Assembly: GCF_002266435.3 (NCBI RefSeq)
Contig: NZ_CP029426.2
Span: 3,750,001-3,814,000, forward strand
Source of the DNA: Bradyrhizobium amphicarpaeae
GTDB lineage: Bacteria > Pseudomonadota > Alphaproteobacteria > Rhizobiales > Xanthobacteraceae
Length of the DNA: 64,000 nucleotides
Direction of reading: 5' to 3'
The notes under the pieces were generated by a model. The model was not told the origin of the DNA. It did not search any database and saw only the letters and a program-made list of their open reading frames with translations. Positions 10,310 through 17,900 of this stretch are shown here, piece by piece; position 1 is the first letter of the stretch; each line of letters begins with the position of its first letter. Position numbers and translations under genes: made by a program.

Positions 10310-11533
10310 ATGTCCCAGGCGGGCCCGATACTGTTTGTGTCCAATGCCGAGCGGCCGCCCTTCATCGCGGCGCTGGACGAGGCCCGGCTCTTTCCCGTCG
10401 TCGACACCGACTGGGCCAGCGCAGCGCGCGCGGTCGAGCAGGTCCAGCCGGCCGTGGTTCTCGCCCAGATATCCGGCGGTCATGAGCCGCATATCGCGCC
10501 GCTCGCGAAGAAGATCGCCGACCAGTCGCCCTACCTTCCCTTCGTGGCCCTTGATGCTTCGGGCGCGCTGCCCCTCAATGCCCTGCCCTTCTCCTCGCAC
10601 GGCGGCAATCCCGACCGCCTGATCGCGCGGCTTCGCGCCGCTTTGCGCGTGCGCACCCTGCATGCCACGGTGCTGCGCCGGCTGCCGGAAGTGAAGGTCG
10701 CGTTGCCGGAGGGCGATCCCGCCCGCGATGCCACCGTGCTCCTGATCGGCCGCGGCCCGGCCTATCCCGCGCTCTCCGTCGCGCTCGGCGAACGCGCCGG
10801 CGTGATCGGTGCTCTCTCGATCGAGGCCGCCGCCAAACACCTCAACACCCGCGACCTCGACGGCGTCGTGCTCGCCGAAGGTTTTACCCCGCGCGTCACC
10901 GACGCCTTTCTCACGGTGCTCGCCGAGGACACCCGCTTCCGCAGCCTTCCCGTCGTCGTCACCGCGCATCAGCTGACGCAGAGCTACGATCTGCCCAATC
11001 TCGAGTTGATCCCGGGCGAGCCGGCCAAGGTCGCGGCCAACGCGCTGCCGCTGATCCGCCAGCATGCGATGGAAGCACAATTGAGCCGCACGCTGCGCTC
11101 GATCGATGCCGGCGGCTGGCTCGATCCGCGCAGCGGCCTGCTCACGGTGGAAGCTTTCGCCCGCGATTTCTCCAGGGCGGTCGAGCAGACGCTGGCCCGC
11201 GGCGGCGGCCTGTCGGTTGCGCGCTTCGCCTTCGACCCAGGCAATTCCCGCGCCCAGCTCGATGCCGCCCGCATCCTCAGCCGGCTGATGCGGCAGATGG
11301 ATTTCGGCGCGGCGCAGAAGGACGGCTCCGTCATCGTCGTTTTCGCGGAGACCGACTTCCGCACCGCTCACATGATCGCCCGCCGCCTCTCGGCGGTGAT
11401 GCGGCATACCTCCAACGGCAAGCACGAGATGCGCAGCGATCCCGTCGTCAGCGTGGATTCGCTGTCGCCGTCGGACAATGCGCGCTCGCTGCTGGCGCGG
11501 TTGTCGGCGGATGGGACGCGCGCGGCGTCCTGA
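10310..11533 (+). CDS. receiver-like / degenerate GGDEF protein
   Basis: A 407-residue soluble protein starting MSQAGPILFVSNAERP. It looks like a PleD-type layout: an N-terminal receiver-like fold (about 1-120), a second alpha/beta region (about 135-245, DATVLLIGRGPAYPAL onward) and a GGDEF-like domain (about 260-400, GWLDPRSGLLTVEAFARDF onward). The GGDEF signature is missing; the equivalent strand reads KDGSVIVVFAE. No aspartate triad typical of a phosphorylatable receiver is obvious. It is probably a non-catalytic signalling or scaffold protein. It is 86 nt downstream of the AMP-binding gene, so possibly a separate transcript. Confidence 0.65.
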   Translation: MSQAGPILFVSNAERPPFIAALDEARLFPVVDTDWASAARAVEQVQPAVVLAQISGGHEPHIAPLAKKIADQSPYLPFVALDASGALPLNALPFSSHGGNPDRLIARLRAALRVRTLHATVLRRLPEVKVALPEGDPARDATVLLIGRGPAYPALSVALGERAGVIGALSIEAAAKHLNTRDLDGVVLAEGFTPRVTDAFLTVLAEDTRFRSLPVVVTAHQLTQSYDLPNLELIPGEPAKVAANALPLIRQHAMEAQLSRTLRSIDAGGWLDPRSGLLTVEAFARDFSRAVEQTLARGGGLSVARFAFDPGNSRAQLDAARILSRLMRQMDFGAAQKDGSVIVVFAETDFRTAHMIARRLSAVMRHTSNGKHEMRSDPVVSVDSLSPSDNARSLLARLSADGTRAAS

Positions 11534-11575
11534 CCGTTGCCGCCTGCTCCAGAGCATGATCCGGAATGTGGTCCG

Positions 11576-14449
11576 TCAGAGGCCCTTCCCTGCAGCCGTC
11601 AGCTTGGCGAGCTGGGACGCGGTTTCAGTCGCGATGGCAGATTGCAGGTCCGGACTGACCTTCGGCAGCAGGGCTCTTTGCGTGCTGACGGCGAGACGGA
11701 ACAAGTCCGGCCAGCCCGGCAGCTGATCCCGATGAGCCTGGTTGAGAAACTCCGTGGTGAGACCGAGCGCCTGTCGCGTGCCGTCCATAGCGCGGCAGTC
11801 GGCGAACGCGGTCGCGGACTCGAAGCCGAGGGCGATTGCGTCATGCAGGCGATCCTCGACCGCACAGATACGGGCGCGATCAAGCAAAAACTGCGCAGCG
11901 CGGGCCGGCTGGTTCATGGCGCGGGCGTTGTCCAGCGCCTGTCTTGCGACTTGATCCGCTTCCTGCGTTTCGCCAGCCATGGTGAGGGCCTGGACCAAGG
12001 CACCGGCAGCCGATAGGTCCTCACGGTCGCCGAAAGCATGTCGGGCGAGGTCGCGGTACAGCCGCGCTGACGCCACGGCCTCCTGGGCCCGTTGCAGGAC
12101 CAGCAAGGCACGGGTCTCGTCGCCCTTGAACTTCGCACGTTCCTTCAGATCGTCCAGTTCGGTGGCGAGCGCGAAGCCATCGCGGGCAACGTCGAGCGCA
12201 CGCTCCTCGTCGTGATTGATGCGGGCCAATTGGCCGACGCGGCCGAGCGTGAAAAGCCGCTGCCTGCGGTCGTCGGGCTGAACACTGGCAAGGGCCCGTT
12301 CGGCCGTGGCGAAAGCCTCCTGCATTTGTCCTGCGGCGCGCAACGCATCGCTGCGCAGGTTGAGCACGGCGGTCGACCCGTCCTCGGCCAGCAAATCCAG
12401 CGTATCCTGGATGCGGCTTTCCGCGAGAGCGATCCGCGCTCCGTGATAGTGGATAAGCCCTCGAGACAAGGTGCGGCCGGCATCGGCGAGTCCGGCGCGG
12501 TCGAGCAGTGACTGCGCAGCCGCAACCTCGGCGGCGCGAGCAGGCACGTGGTCTTGCCTGTCCTCCGCCTGGCGGGCCATCACGGAAAGGCGATCGGAGG
12601 CTATGTCGAGCCGATCCGCATCGGGCGCGGGCCAGCGCTGGTCGAGCACGTCGATCAGTTGTCCCGCTACGGTCCACAGCAGTTCCTGCATCGGCCGGAT
12701 GAAGATGCCGGGCGGCCCTCCACTGCCCTGCGCCAGCGATCGCAGCAAGGCGTTCAACAGTTGCCTGATGCCCTTTGCCAGCGCTTCGCGGCGTGAGCGA
12801 TTGTCCGAGAGCGTCGCGAGCTGCGCGCTGGCAGTACCGGCAAAGATATAGGCCCGATCGGTGTGGCGGTCGACGCCGGTCTGGCGGATGGCGCGGGCAA
12901 TCGACCAGCCATGCTGAACGGTGCGCTCGAGGACGGATCTGGCAAGACGCGCGGCCTGCTCCGCATCCACCGGCCAGAGCGTGCCGATATAGCCGCGCGC
13001 CCCGGTGCGGATGAACTCTCGACCAACACCGACCCAGCTCAGGCAAGAATTGTTGAAGACGAAAGGCCGGCTCGGCAGCGCGCTTCGAAACAGTTTCCAC
13101 GCCGGGAGTTCGCCATCGGCCAGCACGATCTCCTGCTGATTGCCATGGGTGTTGAAGTGAATGAACTCAATCGGGAGAAGCTCTCCGAGACGGATCAGAT
13201 TGAGGCCGGCGGCTGCGGCACCCGACAGCAACAACACGATGGCGGGGCGGTCATTCAGCACGTGCAGCACGTCGGCAGTTTCATTGGTGTCGAATTCGCC
13301 GGTGTCGAACAGCAGCGTGAAGCCGATGGTATCGGTGGCCGGTGTGTCGAGCAGTTCCGTCAGCACGATCAGGGTCGGATCGCCGGCAACATGGCCGATC
13401 GTCTTGCCGACCCAGTCGGCGCCGCACTTGCGGACGAAGCTGTACGGCACCGCGTAAGTGAAGACAGTGAGATCGCGCTCGCCGATTGCGGTGACCACCA
13501 CGTCGGGAACGGCATCGTTCACGGCAGCCTCGATCGCCTGGAGCGGGCCCGCGATATCGGGGCTTTCGGTGAGCGACCGCCACCAGTCGCGCACGGTGGC
13601 AAATAACTTATCGCCAGACCGGCCGGACATGGCGGCGAGAGCGTCGGATATGGCGGCAGTATCGGGTGCCGGCGTCAGTACCAGCAGGGCCCGCCGCTCG
13701 TGGGCATATTGCACGCCGATCAGGGCTGTGGCGTCCGGTTCGGATTGTATCTCGACCAGAATCGCCTCGGTGGCCTCCGCCGCTGGCAGGTCGGGGCACG
13801 CGGCAGCTCCGGGAGCAAGGGGACGGCCTGTCTTGAGCGCACTCGCCAAGGCCGCAAACCAACCGAACGCATCGTCATGCTCCGGGCCTTGCGGAATCGG
13901 GAACGCCGTATCGCGGCCGCAGGCCGACCAGGCGCGCATCGCAAGAGTGTCGAGGCCGGGGTCGAGCAAGATGCGCTCGGTAGCATTGGGCAGAACCGGC
14001 GTCCGATCCGGGCCAATCCGGCTGACCGGGACCGCCTCGATGAGGTCGAGCTCGCCGGGCGAAGGGTCGAACAAAAGGATCGCGCGTCTCGGCGGCTGAC
14101 CCGCCAGCAGGCCGCCAAGCGAGCGCTGGTGGCGCCACCACGAGCGGAACGGTGTGAGCGCCTGTGCCGCCGCGTCGACGGCGACGTTGAGAGCCGAGAC
14201 TTCGGTCAGTGACGCGACCTGTCGCGCCATGGCCGTACCGACCTTGGCGTCCCGCTGATTGCGGACGGCAACATAGGCGTCATACAGGAGGCGATAGCCA
14301 TCGTCGGTGACGGGCGGCGGTTCGATGACGAGCAGCGGCGTGAAGCCATCGGTGGGACAGCAGGACAGCACGATGGCCGCTTCTCGCCATTGCGCCGGGC
14401 GGCACAGGACGACGAGGCCGGACGATCGCCTCGGCGTCCCCGCGGTCAT
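11576..14449 (-). CDS. CHAT domain (caspase-like) protease with helical-repeat C-terminus
   Basis: A 957-residue protein starting MTAGTPRRSSGLVVL. The CHAT peptidase domain sits in the middle: the catalytic His in FIHFNTHG (His435) and the Cys in FVFNNSCLSW (Cys469), followed by the family hallmarks GARGYIGTLWPVD and AYIFAG. Residues 1-400 hold two or more alpha/beta segments of no family I recognise. Residues about 620-950 are an Ala/Leu/Arg-rich helical array that looks like degenerate TPRs. There is no signal peptide, so it is cytosolic. Its start overlaps by 4 nt (ATGA) the stop of a two-helix membrane protein gene, indicating a coupled pair. Such proteases process partner proteins, often in defence or cell-death modules; that role is inferred here. 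Confidence 0.85.
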   Translation of the reverse strand: MTAGTPRRSSGLVVLCRPAQWREAAIVLSCCPTDGFTPLLVIEPPPVTDDGYRLLYDAYVAVRNQRDAKVGTAMARQVASLTEVSALNVAVDAAAQALTPFRSWWRHQRSLGGLLAGQPPRRAILLFDPSPGELDLIEAVPVSRIGPDRTPVLPNATERILLDPGLDTLAMRAWSACGRDTAFPIPQGPEHDDAFGWFAALASALKTGRPLAPGAAACPDLPAAEATEAILVEIQSEPDATALIGVQYAHERRALLVLTPAPDTAAISDALAAMSGRSGDKLFATVRDWWRSLTESPDIAGPLQAIEAAVNDAVPDVVVTAIGERDLTVFTYAVPYSFVRKCGADWVGKTIGHVAGDPTLIVLTELLDTPATDTIGFTLLFDTGEFDTNETADVLHVLNDRPAIVLLLSGAAAAGLNLIRLGELLPIEFIHFNTHGNQQEIVLADGELPAWKLFRSALPSRPFVFNNSCLSWVGVGREFIRTGARGYIGTLWPVDAEQAARLARSVLERTVQHGWSIARAIRQTGVDRHTDRAYIFAGTASAQLATLSDNRSRREALAKGIRQLLNALLRSLAQGSGGPPGIFIRPMQELLWTVAGQLIDVLDQRWPAPDADRLDIASDRLSVMARQAEDRQDHVPARAAEVAAAQSLLDRAGLADAGRTLSRGLIHYHGARIALAESRIQDTLDLLAEDGSTAVLNLRSDALRAAGQMQEAFATAERALASVQPDDRRQRLFTLGRVGQLARINHDEERALDVARDGFALATELDDLKERAKFKGDETRALLVLQRAQEAVASARLYRDLARHAFGDREDLSAAGALVQALTMAGETQEADQVARQALDNARAMNQPARAAQFLLDRARICAVEDRLHDAIALGFESATAFADCRAMDGTRQALGLTTEFLNQAHRDQLPGWPDLFRLAVSTQRALLPKVSPDLQSAIATETASQLAKLTAAGKGL

Positions 14450-14796
14450 AACGCGTCCAGAAAGCTGTGATAGGGCGACAGGCGCGCTGGCGCTGCCTCT
14501 GCGCCTGCCTCTTTGGTCTGGCTGGTTTTCCTCCTCCTGTTGCCTGCGGCGGCTGCATGTGCCTTGCCGATCAGCACGTCGGTCGAGATGCCATTATAGA
14601 AAGCGGAATAGAGGTTGGCGCTAGGCAGGATCGCCGCCACCACACCGGCAATGGCGGCATAGACCAATGAAAAGAATATCAGGGAGGGAGACCAAGTATA
14701 GGTGCCGCCGTTCCGCAAGACATTGACCTGGCGCACGACTTCAGGGGCGATGGCACCGAGCGCGCCCAGAAGAAAAAGAGGTTGCCAATCCGCCAT
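14446..14796 (-). CDS. two-helix membrane protein paired with CHAT protease
   Basis: A 116-residue protein starting MADWQPLFLLGALGAIAPEV. There are two hydrophobic segments, about residues 5-22 and 38-60 (SLIFFSLVYAAIAGVVAAILP), then a conserved-looking amphipathic stretch (NLYSAFYNGISTDVLIG) and a basic, Ala-rich tail (GNRRRKTSQTKEAG). No family is recognised. The minus-strand stop overlaps the CHAT gene start by 4 nt, so both proteins are made in step. A purine-rich AAAGGG about 7 nt upstream of the ATG can serve as ribosome-binding site. A pore-forming or anchoring partner released or activated by the protease would fit, but this is inference. Confidence 0.75.
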   Translation of the reverse strand: MADWQPLFLLGALGAIAPEVVRQVNVLRNGGTYTWSPSLIFFSLVYAAIAGVVAAILPSANLYSAFYNGISTDVLIGKAHAAAAGNRRRKTSQTKEAGAEAAPARLSPYHSFLDAL

Positions 14797-14996
14797 GACA
14801 CAACCCTTTTAATATTCGGAGGCAATATACCGCGTAAGGTTGATCAGAACAAGGACCTCGCCTGGTCTCAAGAACGACTCCCTTCCGACCGCGGACGGCG
14901 GCGGCACCAACCGTTCTGTCGGTGATCACGGCACAGCGCCTGGTCCGGACGCAGCGCACGTTTCAACTGCGCGGCGCGTCCGGAGCACAACGGATC

Positions 14997-17900
14997 CTAC
15001 GCCGCCTTCTTGCTCTCCGCGAGTTGCGCCAGCTGACGCATGATCTCCGTCGTGCCGGCGAGACGCTCTTCCGGCGTCTCCCAGTCCTGCAGGAACACCA
15101 CCTTCATGTCGGGCCGCACCTTGGCGGCCTGACCGTAGCTGCGGATGAACGACACCAGGCGATCGGGATGGGCGAAGGAATTGTCGCGGAAGGCGATGAC
15201 GGCGCCCTTCGGACCGGCATCGATCTTTCCGACATTGGCGCGGCGGCAGAACGCCTTGATCGCCGCGACCTTGAAGAGGTAGCGGACCTCGTCCGGCAGC
15301 ACCCCGAAGCGGTCGCGCATCTCGGCGCCAAAGTTCTCGATCTCCTCCTCGCTGTCGAGATCGGCCAGACGCCGGTACAGCGACAGCCGCACCGAGAGAT
15401 CGCCGACGTAATCCTCCGGAATGAGCACGGGCATGCCGATGGTGATCGACGGCGACCAGCGGTCGGCGGCTGGCTCGGACACGCCGGCCTTGAGGTTGAC
15501 GATCGCCTCCTCCAGCATCGATTGATAAAGCTCGAACCCGACCTCCTTGATGTGGCCCGACTGCTCCTCGCCGAGCAAATTGCCGGCGCCACGGATGTCG
15601 AGGTCGTGCGAGGCGAGCTGGAAGCCCGCACCCAGCGTTTCCAGAGATTGCAGCACGGTGAGCCTGCGCTCGGCCTGCGCCGTGATCTTCTGCTGCGCCG
15701 GCAGCGTGAACAGCGCATAGGCCCGCAGCTTGGAACGGCCGACGCGGCCGCGCAGCTGATAGAGCTGGGCGAGACCGAACATGTCGGCGCGGTGCACGAT
15801 CAGCGTGTTGGCGTTGGGGATGTCGAGGCCGGACTCGACGATCGTGGTCGACAGCAGGATATCGAACTTGCCGTCGTAGAACGCCGTCATGATGTCCTCG
15901 ATCACGGCGGGCGGCATCTGACCGTGCGCGACCGCGACCTTCATCTCCGGTACGTTCTTGTCGAGGAAGTCCTTGACCTCGGCGAGATCGTCGATGCGCG
16001 GCACCACATAGAACGCCTGGCCGCCGCGATAACGCTCGCGCAGCAGCGCCTCGCGGATCATCAGCGGATCGTGCGGGGCGACGAAGGTGCGGACCGCGAG
16101 GCGGTCGACCGGGGGCGAGGCGATGATCGAGAGCTCGCGGACGCCGGTGAGCGCGAGTTGCAGCGTGCGCGGGATCGGCGTCGCCGACAGCGTCAGCACG
16201 TGCACCTCGGCGCGAAGCGCCTTCAGCCGCTCCTTGTGGGTGACGCCGAAATGCTGCTCCTCGTCGACGATGACGAGCCCGAGGTCGCGGAATTTGATGG
16301 CCTTGCCGAGCAGTGCGTGGGTGCCGACGACGATGTCGACCGAACCGTCGGCGATGCCCTTCTTGACCAAATTGAGCTCCTTGGTCGGGACCAGGCGCGA
16401 AGCCTGCGCCACGTTGACCGGAAAGCCCTTGAAGCGCTCTGTGAATGTCCTGTGATGCTGGCGCGCCAGCAGCGTGGTCGGCACCACGACCGCGACCTGC
16501 TTGCCTTCGAGCGCCACGGCGAAGGCCGCGCGCAAGGCCACCTCGGTCTTGCCGAAGCCGACGTCGCCGCAGATCAGCCGGTCCATCGGGCGGCCGAGCT
16601 CGAGGTCCTTCAGCGTGGATTCGATCGCGCCTAATTGGTCCTCGGTCTCGTCATAGGGGAAGCGCGCGCAGAACTCGTCGTAAAGGCCCGGCTGCACCGG
16701 CAGCTTGGGCGCTTCGTGCAGATGGCGCGCGGCGGCGATCTTGATCAGCTCGCCCGCGATCTCGCGGATGCGGTTCTTGAGCTTTGCCTTGCGGGTCTGC
16801 CAACCGCCGCCGCCGAGGCGATCGAGCTCGACACTGGTCTGGTCGGAGCCGTAGCGCGAGAGCAGCTCGATGTTCTCGACCGGAAGGAACAGTTTGGTCT
16901 CGGCGGCATAATGCAATTCGAGGCAGTCGTGCGGAGCGCCGGCGACGTCGAGGGTCTGCAGGCCGACGAAGCGGCCGATGCCGTGGTCGACGTGGACGAC
17001 GATGTCGCCGGCCGACAGGCTCGTGATCTCCGAGATGAAATTGTCGAGCTTGCGGCTCGCCTTGCGCGGGCGCACCAGGCGGTCGCCCAAAATATCCTGT
17101 TCGCTGATGAGGGCGATCTCGTCGGTCTCGAACCCGCTCTCGAGGCCGAGCACGGCCAGCATGGTCTCGTTGCGCGGGGTCGCCTGCACCGTCCGCCAGC
17201 TGTTGACGCTGGTGGTATGGGCCAGCTTATGGTCGCGCAGCATCGAATTCATGCGGTCGCGCGAGCCTTCGCTCCAGAGCGCGATGACGACCTTCTTGCG
17301 CTGGGCATGCAGCGCCATGACGTGGCTGACGACGGCTCCGAACACGTTGACCGTCGTATCGTTGCGCTCAGGCGCGAAATCGCGGCCCTTGCGCGCACCG
17401 GCATCGACGACGCTCGTCCCGTCGGCCGGGACCGAAAACTGCGTCAGCCGCACCAGCGGCATGTCGCTCTCGCGCCTGGTCCATTCTTCGGCGGTGAGAT
17501 AAAGCCGGTCCGGCGGCAGCGGCTTGTAGATGGCGCCGCCGGCTGGATGCTCCATGGCGTCGCGGCGGGCCTCGTAATAGTCCTGGATCTGCTTGAAGCG
17601 CTCGCGGACGGCGTCCTCGGCCTGCGGCTCGATGGCGATGGGCGCGCCTTGCAGATAGTCGAACAGCGTGTCCATCCGATCCTGGAACAGCGGCAGCCAG
17701 TGCTCCATGCCGGGATGACGGCGGCCCTCGCTGACGGCCTCGTACAGCGCATCGTCGCGCTCGGGCGCGCCGAACTCGGCGACATAGCCCATGCGGAAAC
17801 GACGGATGGTGTCGGTGACGAGCTGGAATTCCGAGATCGGGACCAGATTGAGCGCGCGCATGTCCAACAGCGTGCGCTGGGTCTCGGCATCGAAGGTGCG

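Follow-up and report, generated by a model that had tools for sequence, protein, structure and literature searches.

We analysed a two-gene module on the minus strand of a 64,000-nucleotide (nt) stretch from Bradyrhizobium amphicarpaeae (NZ_CP029426.2, positions 3,750,001 to 3,814,000; hereafter the window, whose own numbering is used throughout). The upstream gene (14446..14796) encodes a small membrane protein of 116 amino acids (aa) and the second gene (11576..14449) a 957-aa protease with a CHAT domain and tetratricopeptide repeats (TPR). An initial annotation of this DNA had described two complete open reading frames (ORFs) with a 4-nt overlap, and both were verified at these places, with these lengths and on this strand, sharing an ATGA stop/start overlap (14446..14449, minus strand). 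Genome comparisons supported the pair as a dedicated unit in Alphaproteobacteria and Actinomycetota, in which the protease may control a membrane-acting partner. Comparison with the nearest orthologue pair, in the genome of a relative (G141; G, L and P numbers are our handles), gave a ratio of non-synonymous to synonymous divergence (dN/dS) of about 0.14 for the small gene (dN 0.063, dS 0.45) and about 0.18 for the CHAT gene (dN 0.058, dS 0.33). Changes at the three codon positions numbered 8/8/30 and 70/43/206, respectively, and thus fell mostly on the third. From this bias and the two ratios it follows that both genes encode real proteins, and both are under purifying selection.

Domain anatomy of the two proteins

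The small protein contains a first hydrophobic segment at residues 7-23 (14728..14778, from alignment and hydropathy) and a second, strongest one at residues 37-56 (14629..14688, from alignment, model and hydropathy), all coordinates in this section being on the minus strand. Family-averaged hydropathy had means of 1.5 for residues 7-23 and 2.5 for 40-56, with a weaker third stretch at 64-80 (1.2). In an alignment of 54 members, G14, A17, E19 and R22 of segment 1 were invariant and G11, A15 and P18 nearly so; segment 2 holds the invariant G51 and A54. The structure model of the small protein was poor (pLDDT 62) and serves for the helix outline only. Two spans and a basic tail had been annotated initially; two spans are reasonable, the first being just moderately hydrophobic, and the basic stretch was found as a variable linker (residues 83-104, 14485..14550) with a median net charge of +4 (52 of 54 members counted). 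The linker is followed by the C-terminal tail RLSPYHSFLDAL (residues 105-116, 14449..14484), delimited by its conservation in homologues.

A first search with the small protein returned 13 homologues; after the profile had been widened with actinobacterial relatives the number rose to 196, mostly 100-125 aa long. Their consensus reads G..GALAPEIVRLY, WSWFY, A.LGG..A..LPAT and GA.Y.G.STPVLVN, followed by the basic linker of variable length and the C-terminal tail. Residues R105-S107 and S111-L116 of the tail were invariant in 12/12 close homologues. Among the best 120 of the 196 homologues, 108 end in [FY][LVITS]x[AG][LFY]-COOH, 97 have Ser at position -6 and 109 have Leu at -1; P0013, a 63-aa fragment from the first search, was excluded from this tally. 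The tail is also present in 10 of the 11 clear homologues that were read from DNA, the exception being a frame-broken copy in G638. Searches with the window protein revealed no family match in Pfam, NCBIfam or PADLOC and no notable sequence match among solved structures. In a comparison with known small membrane effectors (SLATT, CBASS transmembrane effectors, holins), scattered weak Pfam matches appeared among the 54 members: TM7S3_TM198 (7e-4, 1/54), FA_desaturase (0.0016, 20/54), Phage_holin_3_3 (0.019, 7/54) and S_4TM (0.18, 1/54).

The protease begins with an alpha/beta region (residues 1-225, 13775..14449, from alignment and structure prediction), in which C16, R17, Q20 and E23-A25 are at least 90% conserved. 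Two halves of a clan CD double domain follow: a pseudo-protease half (residues about 226-400, 13250..13774, from a structure match, the inner border being estimated) and the catalytic CHAT half (residues about 401-549, 12803..13249, from Pfam and a structure match). The codons of the catalytic residues, assigned from sequence and alignment, lie at 13145..13147 (His435) and 13043..13045 (Cys469). The remaining part is all-helical (residues 553-952, 11594..12793, from Pfam and structure), with a predicted TPR superhelix at about 607-953. Pfam detected CHAT at residues 421-526 (E 4.6e-7; 30 bits, cut-off 24) and TPR_12 at 695-763, below its cut-off; there was no NCBIfam match, and PADLOC gave just a weak match to BovA. 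Both His435 and Cys469 were invariant in a 56-row alignment, and in the predicted structure H435 comes after a strand (427-433) and C469 lies inside one (463-470). These results bear out the intact His435/Cys469 dyad and the helical C-terminus of the initial annotation. Residues 1-400, annotated there as a single unassigned region that might be the sensor, are divided by our assignment, since about 226-400 form the pseudo-protease half.

A structure search aligned residues 226-549 to gingipain R, with further matches to separase and Csx29, and the TPR part resembled the peptide-binding protein LGN; the protease part alone had no notable sequence match among solved structures. By profile, motifs and predicted caspase-like double fold, the window protease belongs to clan CD / CHAT. 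Besides the N-terminal region, the TPR region could likewise serve in sensing or docking. The strand-helix unit at the protease N-terminus seems, by eye, to recur at the start of short Bacteroidota CHAT proteins (L025-L039). Elsewhere, the window genome contains five further CHAT matches; three are strong (E < 1e-50) and fall in open frames of 885-1149 aa.

Co-inheritance, absence of the partner and distribution

A CHAT-TPR gene, damaged in two cases, is adjacent in 11/11 genomes with a clear small-protein homologue read as DNA, ranging from Bradyrhizobium to Streptomyces and Nonomuraea. Four of these pairs were first reached through CHAT and the other seven also come from genome sets searched with the small protein, so the unbiased adjacency count is 7/7. 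The distance from the stop of the small gene to the CHAT start was -4 to +23 nt (8 loci with the start placed). In 265 Bradyrhizobium genomes, 11 had a protease match at E 1e-3; the match was full-length in three (the window's own genome, G141 and G223) and spanned just 85-140 residues in the other eight. The small protein occurred in 3/265 of these genomes, namely the same three, adjoining the full-length CHAT gene. Five small-protein profile matches were found in 343 Streptomyces genomes, of which one weak match (22 bits) was set aside and the other four adjoin CHAT. Six actinobacterial CHAT loci from a scan of genome contigs, which were reached through CHAT and test the CHAT-to-small direction only, have the small gene directly upstream and one copy per genome (6/6). 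When representative contigs were paired on their nt size, 14 contigs of 50 CHAT hits recurred among the small-protein hits; 400 shifted controls gave a mean of 0.18 and a maximum of 3. No clear small protein was detected in 200 genomes sampled from the Saccharothrix family (two matches, 22-23 bits), nor, besides the window's own, in 269 genomes of the window's order (three weak matches). The pair is old.

The initial annotation had named two observations as contrary to a protease-partner module, small-protein homologues without CHAT and an unconserved dyad. For clear small-protein homologues neither occurred: each one read as DNA adjoins CHAT or its remains, and H435, G436 and C469 were intact in 8/8 partnered loci tabulated. 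Against strict pairing stand 11 genomes of Saccharothrix and one of Burkholderiales in which a CHAT gene of this family lacks the small partner, as well as several weak matches to membrane proteins that have no CHAT beside them. Weak small-protein matches of 15-42 bits (L054, L055, L062/L072, L093, L091/L095 and, on rechecking, G268) were treated as chance matches or unrelated membrane proteins; true members among them would count against strict pairing. L054, L055, L072, L093 and L095 showed no CHAT of this family in the stretch read (short for L054, L055 and L093), and their frames lack the tail at the end.

Thirteen CHAT loci without an upstream small gene were traced to whole genomes: 11 from Saccharothrix, one from Burkholderiales (L012) and one from a planctomycete (L007, whose contig begins just before the CHAT gene). 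None of the 13 genomes matched the first small-protein profile at E 0.1 or the wider one at E 0.001, with one, G268, at E 0.084 and 15.8 bits. The positive controls of the wider search, G533 (E 1e-46) and G141 (E 4e-36), were recovered with neither small protein in the profile; G141's own protein P0003 is outside it, though close relatives of P0003 are inside. The Saccharothrix proteins carry G436D in 9/11 and C469R in 1/11 (L018), and are intact in 1/11 (L009). A catalytic-motif residue is thus changed in 10 of the 11 loci (L009, L013, L014, L017-L024), with long open CHAT-TPR frames retained, and the altered proteins are possibly pseudo-proteases with a new role. In the tree, the genes from Saccharothrix make up one side of a branch (support 100) that falls within the partnered actinobacteria. 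Since they are a single nested branch with differing changes, loss of the partner probably occurred a single time, followed by repeated changes in the active-site motifs. A membrane part fused to the C-terminus of the Saccharothrix CHAT proteins (a hydrophobic stretch near 1030-1060) was considered and rejected, partnered relatives having a similar helix there by eye. L009, the sole Saccharothrix locus scanned for neighbours, has a GGDEF gene about 0.8 kb upstream of CHAT.

Two loci hint at exchanged partners. In the Burkholderiales locus (L012:4494-9117) the gene of an LCAT-like alpha/beta hydrolase (Pfam E 1.7e-9) ends 4 nt upstream of a CHAT gene with intact catalytic motifs; the hydrolase has an AHSMGG motif, and its C-terminal end, GFNLLKIL, is hydrophobic but is not the tail motif. 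This one locus hints at a protease guarding membrane-acting effectors. An alpha/beta hydrolase as a general alternative partner was rejected, L012 standing alone and this CHAT occurring in 1/250 genomes of its order (L012's own). The second locus (L096:8156-9604) encodes a candidate remote homologue of the small protein (27 bits, hhalign probability 93.6), and an ORF for an M78-like HEIGH protein lies 42 nt downstream (E 0.0085, below the cut-off); no CHAT of this family was present in the 17 kb read. On these sequence scores L096 may be a remote relative of the small protein, and, as a single locus, it hints more weakly at a membrane part able to switch proteases. Separately, three Bacteroidota loci (L030, L031, L037) have a gene of 524-530 aa that ends 36-43 nt before a CHAT gene of about 620 aa; in L031 this first gene matches type IV secretion system (T4SS) coupling proteins (PF02534, E 1.6e-17). 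Beyond CHAT, 28 nt on, both L030 and L031 carry an 849-aa gene, which in L031 has a weak HATPase_c match.

Within the window, the interval between the gene at 10310-11533 and mfd (11532..14995) contains this module alone. The placement beside mfd given by the initial annotation was confirmed by a Pfam scan, and its description of the other neighbour as a signalling gene was not, the gene at 10310-11533 having no Pfam match. Nothing within 11400-15100 reached the gathering score in Rfam, and the GC content of the module (0.64-0.68) is similar to that of its surroundings. G141 has the module at the same chromosomal place, with 88.7% identity over 5.9 kb. We compared 12 other relatives of the genus at this site, from 20 searched, and none had a match between 11567 and 14984. 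Five relatives have a gap of 95-235 bp and three have 1.1-1.3 kb of unrelated DNA; the other four have other genes at the site, with one flank read because the fetched stretch stops before mfd. The module is accordingly absent at the site in 8/8 relatives with both flanks read, and none of the 12 has a full-length CHAT of this family genome-wide. P0166, P0066 and two L096 proteins had no match in plasmid records.

Possible functions of the pair

We propose a sporadic defence-like module in which a cut in the tail region, made by the activated protease, sets free a membrane-acting effector, and give this reading a probability of roughly 45%. The small gene supplies a membrane protein in which the conserved C-terminal tail sits on a basic, probably cytoplasmic linker, and the second gene a clan CD cysteine protease consisting of pseudo-protease and CHAT halves and a TPR superhelix. 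The tail would dock on the protease, either in the TPR groove or on the CHAT surface. A trigger would alter the TPR or the N-terminal parts and so activate the dyad, whereupon the protease could cleave either the linker or the tail of the small protein. The freed membrane part might then oligomerise and perturb the membrane, in a gasdermin-like manner with another fold. The proposal draws on what was observed: the anatomy of the pair, its shared inheritance and sporadic distribution, the conservation of dyad and tail, and the eroded motifs of the partnerless clade. To these it would add docking, cleavage, membrane action, a trigger and a defence role.

Several observations weigh against it. 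The erosion rests on one clade and carries no statistical claim alone: L009 keeps its motifs, L018 with its C469R comes from a metagenome bin, and the His itself is kept in 11/11. The partnered L011 has Ala at the otherwise nearly invariant N433. No conserved cleavage motif was found within the linker of the small protein. The CHAT gene is damaged in two of the 11 pairs, with profile positions 254-488 missing and two frames in G533 and a remnant in G638; another genome, G541, retains nothing of the pair but a CHAT remnant with stops. An origin from phages or plasmids found no backing, as tblastn with the window protease at E 1e-5 returned nothing from 50,697 phage or 72,556 plasmid records, and neither family alignment was found in viral contigs (83 and 41 pattern stretches, none confirmed). 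The tail, finally, is equally compatible with the docking tag of a membrane anchor.

This last point leads to an unlikely explanation, in which the small protein acts as an anchor or receptor in the membrane and its tail, held in the TPR groove, tethers the protease while it cuts another target. TPR domains bind C-terminal peptides, and the conservation of the tail at the extreme C-terminus, after a variable linker, is like that of such TPR-bound peptides; the likeness of the TPR part to LGN points the same way. Motif erosion in the partnerless clade is slightly easier to explain with the partner as substrate, although losing an anchor could also render the protease useless.

The invariant E19 and R22 within the conserved membrane core, together with the coupling of the two genes, would also fit a small protein that detects damage to the membrane and switches on the protease, the latter then being itself a broad killing effector; we consider this improbable, as the TPR repeats and the N-terminal region already provide sensor surfaces. 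A pair engaged in regulated proteolysis for housekeeping signalling and uninvolved in conflict would agree with the purifying selection on both genes, the shared place in G141 and the absence of the module from the phages, plasmids and viral contigs searched, but is very improbable given the very sporadic occurrence (full-length CHAT in 3/265 Bradyrhizobium, a clear small protein in 4/343 Streptomyces), the decayed copies and the absence at the site in 8/8 relatives.

Comparison with known systems

Csx29 is the TPR-CHAT protease of type III-E CRISPR systems, with Csx30 as its substrate. In Csx29 the TPR part precedes CHAT, whereas in the window protease CHAT comes before the TPR superhelix; the window partner is a membrane protein and there is no Cas7-11 within the pair. 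By domain order, the window pair is not Craspase.

Among other protease-based systems, Borvo (BovA) is a CHAT protease defence gene, as given in the accessible part of PMC10952713; the PADLOC match of BovA to the window protease had E 0.014 and covered residues 475-510 only. The Canu caspase-nuclease and trypsin-nuclease pairs combine a protease with a co-inherited pro-effector released by cleavage, according to the accessible part of PMC12799240. There the effector is a gated nuclease, whereas the window partner is a membrane protein. VMAP ternary conflict systems contain a caspase-superfamily gene neighbouring an alpha/beta hydrolase, as far as the available part of PMC7159879 describes them; L012 is alike, whereas the window pair has no hydrolase. 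Among the papers listed in literature searches covering CHAT and other caspase-like proteases, gasdermins, Borvo, TPR and membrane partners, with few subscription journals included and 20 of 3,135 hits shown for one of the searches, none describes the pair, and it is not mentioned in the available portions of PMC8195603 and PMC10910872.

It is possible, if doubtful, that the pair represents an undescribed class of protease-gated membrane effectors, in which a non-gasdermin protein of about 110 residues carries a conserved C-terminal 12-residue protease tag. The protease would also pair with an LCAT-like lipase (L012) and remote kin of the membrane part with an M78-like HEIGH protein (L096); protease and membrane part would then be exchangeable modules of a bacterial cell-death system that Alphaproteobacteria and Actinomycetota have in common.

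The textbook example of membranes being opened by a caspase-type protease is that of the gasdermins. No gasdermin was found for the 54 small-protein members among the best 25 of the 28 Pfam families listed, the window protein having no Pfam family at all. In bacterial gasdermin pairs, a caspase-type protease adjoins a membrane-acting partner with a functionally critical C-terminal end, and one characterised gasdermin comes from a Bradyrhizobium (PMC9079055). The likeness to the window pair lies in a caspase-like protease encoded next door to its partner. The gasdermin partner has a beta-sheet fold, whereas the window partner is a 116-aa protein with hydrophobic helices (poor model). If the proposed reading is true, it would suggest that protease-triggered membrane attack arose more than once, here with an unrelated membrane protein and a separase-like protease, which are linked by the order of their genes, the sequence of the tail and their correlated loss. 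The pair is also a small, directly testable system, for which substrate, likely cut region and recognition tail have been predicted beforehand.

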